NCBI RefSeq assembly: GCF_019039255.1 | Contig: NZ_CP077062.1 | Span: 4,464,001 to 4,528,000 of the forward strand | Direction: 5' to 3' | DNA from: Nocardioides panacis | GTDB lineage: Bacteria > Actinomycetota > Actinomycetes > Propionibacteriales > Nocardioidaceae | DNA: 64,000 nucleotides | In this document: positions 19,128-22,020 of the stretch, in pieces | How positions within the stretch are numbered: the first letter of the stretch is position 1 | Layout of the letters: the number at the start of each line of letters is the position of its first letter | Program-made: the position numbers and the translations under genes | The notes under the pieces: model-generated | The model's input: the letters and a program-made list of their open reading frames with translations, nothing else | What the model was told of the DNA's origin: nothing | Databases searched by the model: none

Positions 19128-19562
19128 ATGGCGGGCATGACCTTCCAGGACCTGATGGCCGGACCGCCGCCCACCCACCTGCCCGTCGACCCGGCCGCGG
19201 CCGAGCTCGAGTCCGGCACCCCTGCGGTGGAGGTCGTCCGCAGCCACCCCGAGTCGCCGATCGCCTGGGCCACGCTGGCCGAGCAGGCGCTCGCCACCGA
19301 GGGCACCGAGGGCCTCATCGAGGTGACCGCCTACGCCTACGCGCGGGTCGGCTACCACCGCAGCCTCGACCAGCTGCGCCGCAACGGCTGGAAGGGCAAC
19401 GGCCCGGTCCCGTGGGAGCACGAGCCGAACCGCGGCTTCCTGCGCGCGCTGGCGGCACTGGCCCGGGCCGCCGACCGGATCGGCGAGGCCCCCGAGGCGC
19501 AGCGCTGCGCCGACTTCCTCCGTGACAGCAGCCCCACCGCCTACGAAGCCCTCCTGGCCTAG
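19128..19562 (+). CDS. DUF3151 family protein
   Basis: 144 residues, cytosolic, function unknown. The conserved features WATLAEQAL, AYAYARVGYHRSLDQLRRNGWKG and the GFLRALAALARAADRIGE segment identify DUF3151, which in actinobacteria commonly sits beside fba. ATG at 19128 and ATG at 19137 (MTFQDLMAGPP) are both possible; no ribosome site precedes either and the fba terminator ends at 19123, so the second may be the real leaderless start. Alpha-helical composition suggests a repeat-like or adaptor role, which is only an inference. Confidence 0.85.
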   Translation: MAGMTFQDLMAGPPPTHLPVDPAAAELESGTPAVEVVRSHPESPIAWATLAEQALATEGTEGLIEVTAYAYARVGYHRSLDQLRRNGWKGNGPVPWEHEPNRGFLRALAALARAADRIGEAPEAQRCADFLRDSSPTAYEALLA

Positions 19563-19579
19563 GGGGCGGAAGCCGCCCC
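19563..19579 (+). terminator. Terminator after DUF3151 gene
   Basis: Perfect 7-bp stem GGGGCGG / CCGCCCC with loop AAG immediately after the stop codon. Confidence 0.55.
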
Positions 19580-19584
19580 GCAGC

Positions 19585-19639
19585 TGTAACGCGGGGTTAT
19601 GGACGCTCCACCCGAGGTACGACGGGCGCGAACCGTCCA
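19585..19639 (+). repeat. Left arm of 55-bp inverted repeat flanking the nuclease-like gene
   Basis: Begins TGTAACGCGGGGTTATGGAC and ends CGAACCGTCCA. It matches the reverse complement of 20770-20824 at 50 of 55 positions: the first 29 and last 11 bases are identical, and all five mismatches lie in the middle 15. It begins six bases after the terminator of the preceding gene. Confidence 0.9.
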
Positions 19640-19745
19640 CCGCACGTGCACAGCCGGCCGTCCCGCACCCCCGACCCGCCTCGGCCGGTTTTCCTCCCCA
19701 GGGCGCGACCGGCGCGGTTCGTCCACCGGCTCGGCGCCGGACCGG

Positions 19746-19771
19746 CCTCGGACGGCCGGAACCGTCCGAGG
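19746..19771 (+). promoter_or_regulatory. Perfect 10-bp palindrome just before the nuclease-like gene
   Basis: CCTCGGACGG-CCGGAA-CCGTCCGAGG, ending eight bases before the ATG at 19780. The 3' arm supplies the only ribosome-site-like bases (GAGG). It could be a protein-binding operator for autoregulation or an RNA hairpin occluding translation. Confidence 0.5.
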
Positions 19772-19779
19772 CTGCTGGT

Positions 19780-20748
19780 ATGCGCCCCGAGCTCCGAGCC
19801 GTCGCCGCCCGTCACGGCGGGGTCTTCCGCCGCTCCGAGGCCGTCGCCTGCGGCTGCACCGAGCGCGAGATGAAGACGGCGACCGGTCCGGGCGGCTCCT
19901 GGGTCGTCGTCCGCCGGGGTTGCTACGCCGAGCGCGCGCTGTGGGAGCGGCTCGACGACGAGGGCCGCTACGCCCTACGGGTGCGCGCGGCCGCCCTCGC
20001 CCAGGCCCGCCACGGCGTGCCGTCGCACGGCTCGGCGGCGGTGCTGCTCGGGATGCCCACCCGGCCCCGGTGGCGCGAGCTGGTGCACGTCACCCGCCCC
20101 GGCGTCACCGGCTCCCGGACCGAGAACGGCGTCAAGCACCACCTCGCGGCGTACGGCGAGACGGACCTGGCCACCGCGGACGGCCGGCGCGTGCTCGCGC
20201 TGGCCCGGACCGCGGTCGACCTCGCCCGTGAGCACGGCTTCGAGGACGGGGTGGTGGCGTGCGACGCCGCGCTGCGGATGGGGGTCTCGCGCCCGGCACT
20301 GGCCGCGGCGCTGCTGCCGATGACGTACTGGCCGCACGTCACCCGGGCCCGCGCGGCGGTCGAGGCGGCCGACGGCGGCGCCCAGAACGTCGGCGAGTCG
20401 CTGCTGCGGCTGATGGTGCTCGAGCTCGGCATCGGCCGTCCCGAGACCCAGTACGTCGTCACCGAGGGCTCGCGCCGGGCCGAGGTGGACCTGCGGGTCG
20501 GGCGGCACCTGTTCGAGTTCGACGGGCGGGTGAAGTACGTCGACCGGGAGCACGGCGGGGTCGCCGACCGGCCGGTGACGCAGGTGCTGTGGGAGGAGAA
20601 GCGCCGCGAGGACTGGCTGCGCCGGGTGCACGGCGGCCACGGGATGTCCCGCGTGGTGTGGGACGAGCTGTTCGGGGAGGCGCGCCGTCGCACGTTGAGA
20701 CGCCTCCGCGAGGAGTACCGCCACACGGAGCAGCGATTCGGCCGCTGA
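19780..20748 (+). CDS. AbiEi-like/DUF559-type protein with nuclease-like C-terminus
   Basis: 322 residues. The N-terminal ~60 residues look like the winged-helix domain seen in AbiEi antitoxin-like proteins (HGGVFRRSEAVACGCTEREM). The C-terminal third carries a PD-(D/E)XK/Vsr-like pattern: E at RAEVDLRVG, then the strand HLFEFDGRVKY, as in DUF559 proteins. Biochemical role unknown; nuclease activity is an inference from these residues. No partner toxin or antitoxin gene is adjacent. The gene stands alone between two arms of a 55-bp inverted repeat and behind a palindrome. Proteins of this kind are numerous in some actinobacteria. Confidence 0.75.
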   Translation: MRPELRAVAARHGGVFRRSEAVACGCTEREMKTATGPGGSWVVVRRGCYAERALWERLDDEGRYALRVRAAALAQARHGVPSHGSAAVLLGMPTRPRWRELVHVTRPGVTGSRTENGVKHHLAAYGETDLATADGRRVLALARTAVDLAREHGFEDGVVACDAALRMGVSRPALAAALLPMTYWPHVTRARAAVEAADGGAQNVGESLLRLMVLELGIGRPETQYVVTEGSRRAEVDLRVGRHLFEFDGRVKYVDREHGGVADRPVTQVLWEEKRREDWLRRVHGGHGMSRVVWDELFGEARRRTLRRLREEYRHTEQRFGR

Positions 20749-20769
20749 GGCCGTTCCTCGCGAGTGGTC

Positions 20770-20824
20770 TGGACGGTTCGCACGCGTCATACCGTGGGTG
20801 GAGCGTCCATAACCCCGCGTTACA
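20770..20824 (-). repeat. Right arm of 55-bp inverted repeat
   Basis: Reverse complement of the arm at 19585-19639 with five mismatches. It starts 21 bases after the stop of the nuclease-like gene. Target-site duplication was looked for outside both arms and not seen. Confidence 0.9.
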
Positions 20825-21018: not shown

Positions 21019-22020
21019 ATGACCTCCCTGCCGCTCTCCTCCGACGAGATGTCCACCCTCGGGGTGCTCGGTTTCAGCGCCCCGCAGGAGGAGATCTACC
21101 GGCTGCTGCTGCGGCACTCGGGCAGCACCCTGGCCGAGCTCGGCGCCCTGGTCGGGCTGCCTCCCGACGAGCTGCGCGACACGGTGGCCCGCTTCGCCGG
21201 GGCCGGCGTCGTCGACCTGCGGGGGGACGTGGTGCTGGCGCGGCCGCCGGCCGAGGCGATCTCCCGCCTGGTCACCGAGGAGACCCGGCGGCTGCAGAGC
21301 CGGGGGGCCCAGCTCGAGGCGGTCCGGCGGATGCTGCCGTCGCTGAGCGCCGAGCACCTGACCGCCTCGGCGCCCAAGGGCCAGCCGGTGACGCTCGAGC
21401 TGGTCGACGGCGGGGACATCGCGCAGCTGGTGCGCAGCCTCTCGGCCGCCTCGACCGGCGACCTGCTGTGGCTGCGGCCCGACGAGTGGAAGCTGCCGGA
21501 GGGGGTGCAGGTCGACGACTGGGTCAAGGACCTGATGCGCACCGGCCGGCGGTCCCGGGCGATCTACCCGGCCCGGGTGCTCGAGGAGGCCCCGGACATG
21601 ATCCGCAGCCGTGCGGAGGCGGGGGAGCACGTGCGGATCCTCGCGGAGGTGCCGTGCCGGCTGGCGATCATGGGCAGCTCGGCGGCGCTGGTGACCGAGC
21701 GGTTCGGGAAGCCCTCGCAGCGCCGGCTGGTGATCCGCCAGCACTCGCTGATCGGGTCGCTGACCCTCCTGTTCGAGAGCCTGTGGGAGAAGGCGATGGC
21801 CGTGCCCGGCCTGGACGGTCAGCGCCCCGCGGAGGGGGCCAGCGACCAGCGGCTGCTGCTCGGCCAGCTCGCCGGCGGCGCCAAGGACGAGCAGATCGCG
21901 CGGGCGCTCGGCCTCAGCGTGCGCACGGTACGGCGCCGGGTGGCCGAGCTGCTCGGCGAGCTGGGCGCCGACTCGCGGTTCCAGGCCGGCGTCGAGGCGG
22001 TCCGGCGCGGCTGGATCTAG
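21019..22020 (+). CDS. TrmB-like/LuxR-type transcriptional regulator
   Basis: 333 residues. The N-terminal winged helix (~residues 12-75: LGFSAPQEEIYRLLLRHSG, LAELGALVGLPPDELRDTV) is of the TrmB type. A middle domain resembling the TrmB/phospholipase-D-like effector fold follows (~130-260). The C-terminus has a LuxR-type HTH (QIARALGLSVRTVRRRVAEL). Such orphan regulators are numerous in actinobacteria; target genes are unknown. It is convergent with the lipid kinase gene, whose stop overlaps its own by four bases. Confidence 0.85.
   Translation: MTSLPLSSDEMSTLGVLGFSAPQEEIYRLLLRHSGSTLAELGALVGLPPDELRDTVARFAGAGVVDLRGDVVLARPPAEAISRLVTEETRRLQSRGAQLEAVRRMLPSLSAEHLTASAPKGQPVTLELVDGGDIAQLVRSLSAASTGDLLWLRPDEWKLPEGVQVDDWVKDLMRTGRRSRAIYPARVLEEAPDMIRSRAEAGEHVRILAEVPCRLAIMGSSAALVTERFGKPSQRRLVIRQHSLIGSLTLLFESLWEKAMAVPGLDGQRPAEGASDQRLLLGQLAGGAKDEQIARALGLSVRTVRRRVAELLGELGADSRFQAGVEAVRRGWI

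Follow-up and report, generated by a model that had tools for sequence, protein, structure and literature searches.

A predicted AbiEi- and Vsr-type nuclease and the dispersed repeat that flanks its gene look like partners in Nocardioides panacis and other Actinomycetes

In a window of DNA from Nocardioides panacis (the whole stretch analysed, 64,000 nucleotides, positions 4,464,001 to 4,528,000 of NZ_CP077062.1) a single gene for a protein with an AbiEi-like part and a Vsr-like nuclease domain lies between two inverted copies of a repeat that is also dispersed through the genome. We interpret this as a REPtron-like unit with a nuclease other than a RAYT, flanked by inverted copies of its proposed target palindrome, while gene-less copies of the palindrome occupy intergenic sites elsewhere; we consider this reading probable (roughly 0.6). 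The repeat and the protein look like a partnership whose members spread or persist jointly. We infer recognition of the palindromes by the protein, with its nuclease as the putative force behind their dispersal or maintenance.

The features of the locus are as follows, in positions of the window.

19128-19562: DUF3151 gene, the upstream neighbour
19562..19580, no strand assigned: short G+C-rich hairpin GGGGGCGGAAGCCGCCCC, downstream of the DUF3151 stop codon and ahead of the left arm, without a T-run
19585..19639, plus strand: left arm, one member of the dispersed repeat family, TGTAACGCGGGGTTATGGACGCT...GAACCGTCCA; other copies remain homologous to it as far as about 19660
19780..20748, plus strand: gene of the repeat-associated protein (322 aa, AbiEi-type DNA-binding module and Vsr-like nuclease), from the ORF and its homologues
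19780..20373, plus strand: AbiEi-like part, residues 1-198, an N-terminal winged helix and a C-terminal domain (PADLOC AbiEi, 6y8q)
20386..20733, plus strand: Vsr/I-Bth0305I-like nuclease domain, residues 203-318 (3r3p, 1cw0, alignment)
20770..20824, minus strand: right arm, an inverted copy of the left-arm repeat
21019-22020: HTH regulator gene, the downstream neighbour

In a whole-genome search the arms match each other over 55 nt with 50/55 positions identical (90.9%, 77.9 bits, E ~2e-14), and this value, together with the control intervals described below, rules out a chance inverted repeat. Between the arms there is a single ORF, from the ATG at 19780 to the TGA at 20748, and among the ORFs of the arm-to-arm interval there is no second gene and no transposase. 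The sequence and the genome search therefore bear out the original prediction of one gene framed by inverted arms, in a unit that encodes no transposase. The prediction had also placed the arms directly after a terminator; a hairpin does follow the DUF3151 stop codon, but it lacks a T-run and a terminator scan was empty. No target-site duplication was seen when the repeat copies and the empty sites were read. Next to the window gene there is no AbiEii nucleotidyltransferase toxin gene, the neighbours being the DUF3151 and HTH regulator genes.

Within the window the repeat occurs solely as these two arms. When the species' own genome was searched (4.9 Mb, one contig), the repeat core, TAACGCGGGGTTA, was found in 16 copies at 11 loci, the arms included, as five inverted pairs and six single copies. 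The pairs without a gene span 70, 163, 164 and 186 bp and the gene-bearing pair spans 1240 bp. The copies are intergenic and mostly start about 15-25 bp past stop codons, and those that were aligned have in common TGTAACGCGGGGTTA.GGACGCT and a block around ACCGTCC. The 70-bp pair (G000:C1:4665093-4665162; L022:1505-1574) is a near-palindrome of two repeat halves set head to head, without a gene, and is possibly the shortest paired form of the repeat. The 16 copies rule out the arms as private ends of a cassette. A cassette with such ends, one of the readings first put forward, is not supported because the arms occur alone at many intergenic sites, an outcome that the original prediction had itself named as counting against it, and in Cryobacterium the gene is confined to a single locus across several species. 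A second reading, that the arms belong to a repeat family tied to this type of gene, is strongly supported by the layout across genomes.

The initial description of the protein as AbiEi-like or DUF559-type was correct in outline, the two names applying to different parts. Residues 1-198 resemble AbiEi both in sequence (PADLOC AbiEi, E 7.1e-11) and in fold (6y8q, Z 10.8, rmsd 5.6 over 178 residues). In fold comparisons residues 203-318 resemble the catalytic domain of I-Bth0305I (3r3p, Z 12.1, rmsd 2.1 over 96 residues) and Vsr (1cw0, Z 9.9), and this nuclease part is also described as DUF559 or MTES_1575-like. The AlphaFold2 model, built from a 99-sequence alignment, has a pLDDT of 95.5. Residues E206, D237, E246, D248, G249, K252, E273, K274 and R276 are invariant in 99/99 homologues, which indicates that a nuclease-type site is under selection. 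In the alignment the H of the EDxHD motif appears to be replaced by K252. No HUH or Y1 transposase domain was found among the Pfam, NCBIfam or fold matches of the protein, NCBIfam gave no meaningful family, a sequence search of solved structures returned nothing relevant, and no homologue was found in plasmids and phages. The window gene falls in a large, undescribed family of actinobacterial proteins of putative DNA-cutting type.

The same layout is found across the Actinomycetes. In a family-level search arms flank the gene at 30/30 loci, and in six genomes 28/30 paralogue loci, a set that takes in weak homologues, are arm-flanked. In a class-wide test with an arm threshold of >=34 bits (Nocardioides, Jiangella, Kribbella, Nocardia, Rhodococcus, Cryobacterium and others) flanking inverted repeats were present at 53/80 loci, compared with 4/435 control intervals, which were shifted intervals in the same loci; the remaining 27/80 loci had no detectable arms. 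The strongest control interval comes from two LysR-like regulator genes that form an inverted pair in Pseudonocardia nigra (L165:2629-4382) and give a 226-bp inverted repeat unrelated to the arms. Arm sequences are unrelated between lineages, and in 14/14 genomes (the window genome, G001, four more species of the genus and eight distant genomes) they are multicopy in the genome of their own gene. For the eight distant genomes, all of the matches listed fall in the genome's own segment of the concatenated query.

Within the genus, the closest orthologue is that of another species (G001), which is 61% identical to the window protein and has different neighbours. The first 25 nt of its arms are identical to those of the window arms, and its genome has 33 repeat matches; repeat numbers here and below are counts of matches, to which one palindrome contributes about two, and the candidates scored were capped at 40 for each genome. 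The dispersed copies in G001 share an interior of their own. Among these copies (loci L055-L069) the interior seemingly has two subtypes, and a second shared segment, GGGGCAGGACGCGCCGACTCG, follows several copies. Four further species of the genus have homologues that are 33-35% identical, each between arms of another sequence and with that arm type multicopy in its own genome; the arms of G004 and G005 are alike and cross-match between both genomes. G003 has no close homologue and, apart from one weak match, none of these repeats; its distant homologues are arm-flanked. Several gene-repeat pairs may coexist in the window genome, since it has at least four further distant homologues (L255, L261, L267, L272) with inverted arms of other sequence (38-77 bits).

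Across 70 gene-arm pairs the similarity of the arms rises with the identity of the proteins (Mantel rho 0.21, 0/2000 permutations as high). Clearly shared arms were found in none of the pairs below 40% protein identity, in 71% at 60-80% and in all above 80%. Recognition of the arm by the protein would lead one to expect such co-divergence, and linkage alone would give some of it too. The stronger point is that the dispersed copies resemble the arm of the local gene.

Cryobacterium allows closely related species to be compared. At several orthologous sites (flanks 85-95% identical) some species have the palindrome and others lack it. G249, G253 and G260 carry the gene-bearing unit at a common site (protein 88-89% identical), and the unit is missing from the orthologous locus in G254 (flanks 91-93% identical), an empty site of the kind that the original prediction proposed to look for in relatives. 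At the same site G261 has the gene reduced to a remnant, and in G257, G258 and G262 the orthologue adjoins the same flank. Some of the empty sites may represent losses. Six species with an intact gene (73-100% identity) have 61, 66, 35, 26, 12 and 7 repeat matches and those with a remnant, frameshifted or absent gene have 14, 7, 6 and 0, counts that also drop with distance from the query arm and that come from species that are not independent points. The flank distance of G254 and G261 to G249 is about as small as that of G253 and G260. In G257 and G258 the gene is present and repeat matches are few, and in G255 and G263 (62% identical proteins) there are none, presumably reflecting diverged arms. 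The homologue in G262 (G262:C1:257485-258473; L342, L346) is broken, being split into two frames, and repeat matches there are few. Short ACGGATGC-type motifs recur beside several Cryobacterium palindromes (L285, L279, L329) and seem to be common intergenically in the genus.

Many of the arms are themselves palindromes of about 55-110 nt. The median fold z of arms is -3.8, compared with -0.2 in neighbouring sequence, and 62% of arms fall below -3 compared with 2%. Autocorrelation over 42 arm families is highest at lags of 19 (mean z 1.06 +/- 0.26) and 20 (mean z 0.85 +/- 0.31), which corresponds to a motif that recurs at a distance of about two turns of the helix; a 19-bp period is not obvious in the repeat of the window species. 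Across 35 Cryobacterium copies, four GGCGCA/TGCGCC motifs make up the invariant blocks, and the stem between them is variable. A conserved hairpin as the main constraint is disfavoured: 84.5% of cells pair, yet covariation is marginal, barely above that of shuffled alignments (28/500 shuffles). Duplex-DNA recognition is suggested because the motif repeats 19-20 bp apart and compensatory pairing is weak, and our reading is that the feature under selection may be a dyad-symmetric duplex site and not a hairpin. An Rfam search of the repeat returned no hit close to threshold, and no GTAG/GTGG foot was seen by eye in the aligned arms.

We propose, as a mechanism, that the AbiEi part would bind the palindrome in its duplex form, through motifs spaced by about two turns of the helix, and that the Vsr-like nuclease would nick or cut at or near the bound repeats or their targets. 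Repair or replication after the cut could then copy repeats to new intergenic sites or keep existing ones intact, and the repeats would be non-autonomous elements that depend on the protein. The earlier suggestion that the arms are recognition sites of the encoded protein gains indirect support from the co-divergence, the motif spacing and the inverted-repeat binding of AbiEi; for the window protein itself, binding is a prediction from these likenesses.

The protein may instead be an AbiEi-derived repressor or architectural protein, with the arms as its operators and the dispersed palindromes as a regulon or scaffold, the nuclease acting on foreign DNA or staying repressed until needed and the repeats spreading by other means. 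For AbiEi proteins, autoregulation and binding to 23-bp inverted repeats are documented (PMC7319586), some 140 bp separate the end of the left arm from the start codon, and the motif spacing with weak covariation suggests a duplex binding site. However, the second arm is always downstream of the gene, the copies in the window genome mostly follow stop codons and are not in promoters, and the nuclease residues are invariant. Repeats that are specific to a lineage, occur in many copies and differ in presence from one close species to the next also imply active copying, and we consider the regulatory explanation unlikely. Still less probable is a MITE with cargo, in which an unrelated transposase elsewhere moves the palindromes and the nuclease gene has been trapped between two of them as a passenger. 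Although the arms are long inverted repeats and the gene-less pairs that span 163-186 bp in the window genome resemble short elements, one protein family lies between unrelated arms in lineage after lineage, where passengers should vary, and species without the gene have fewer repeats; there is also neither a transposase between the arms nor a visible target duplication, as would be found in a classical insertion sequence or MITE. A self-contained homing or transposing unit, in which the 1.2-kb arm-gene-arm segment is moved whole by its own endonuclease and gene-less palindromes are remnants, would account for the nuclease fold being closest to a homing endonuclease, for the related arms and differing neighbours of the window gene and its G001 orthologue and for the empty site in G254, but is equally improbable given that the Cryobacterium orthologue keeps one site in G249, G253 and G260 with a remnant there in G261, that it lies beside the same flank in G257, G258 and G262, that one close gene copy accompanies tens of palindromes and that the observed palindromes are complete repeats, with no fragments of the gene in them.

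The known systems closest to this REPtron-like unit include the RAYT (TnpA-REP) systems with their REP, BIME and REPIN repeats. There, each repeat type has a single full-length nuclease gene, mostly at a fixed locus and with inverted repeat copies on either side, several types are possible in a genome, and the repeats are palindromic, intergenic, often paired and multicopy and co-vary with the RAYT (PMC6006769, PMC3733652, PMC2817692). The layout here is the same, with one nuclease gene, mostly constant in position, between inverted copies of multicopy, often paired intergenic palindromes that co-vary with the protein, and by this analogy the unit appears to work like a REPtron. It is not a member of the REPtrons because the defining HUH nuclease is absent, its nuclease being of AbiEi plus Vsr-like type and not HUH/Y1. 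Its repeats are also larger than REPs (55-110 nt), have no visible GTAG/GTGG foot and, in place of strong compensatory pairing, have a motif period of 19-20 bp. CGTC-tagged REP families are dispersed intergenic palindromes that PMC3733652 describes without a dedicated transposase; they are 20-40 bp long with a CGTC tag, unlike the arms here, and a search of that paper's text found no actinobacterial example named. With AbiEi antitoxins of type IV toxin-antitoxin systems (S. agalactiae AbiEi, M. tuberculosis Rv2827c) residues 1-198 share both fold and sequence, but here no AbiEii-type toxin gene lies between the arms, a nuclease domain is added and the repeats are dispersed through the genome. 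The C-terminal domain shares the fold of Vsr and of the EDxHD or Vsr-like homing endonucleases such as I-Bth0305I, as well as the conserved acidic and lysine residues of their active site. Unlike those genes, the window gene is chromosomal, outside any intron or intein and not beside a methylase, and its protein combines an AbiEi-like DNA-binding part with many genomic repeats in place of one target site.

Intergenic palindromes are common in bacteria, and to our knowledge the enzyme tied so far to their spread is the HUH-type RAYT. No paper linking AbiEi/DUF559-type proteins to dispersed repeats was found in the open-access literature. We put forward tentatively, at a little under even odds, that the family is a second, independently evolved class of repeat-dispersing nucleases, AbiEi-guided, of Vsr or homing type and found throughout the Actinomycetes, which would act on duplex DNA, unlike the nucleases of HUH-driven REPs. 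If this is true, partnerships between repeats and nucleases arose more than once, many actinobacterial repeats would be accounted for, and a role would be suggested for a large group of genes annotated merely as AbiEi- or DUF559-like. The dozens of protein-repeat pairs offer material for testing how repeats are recognised and copied.
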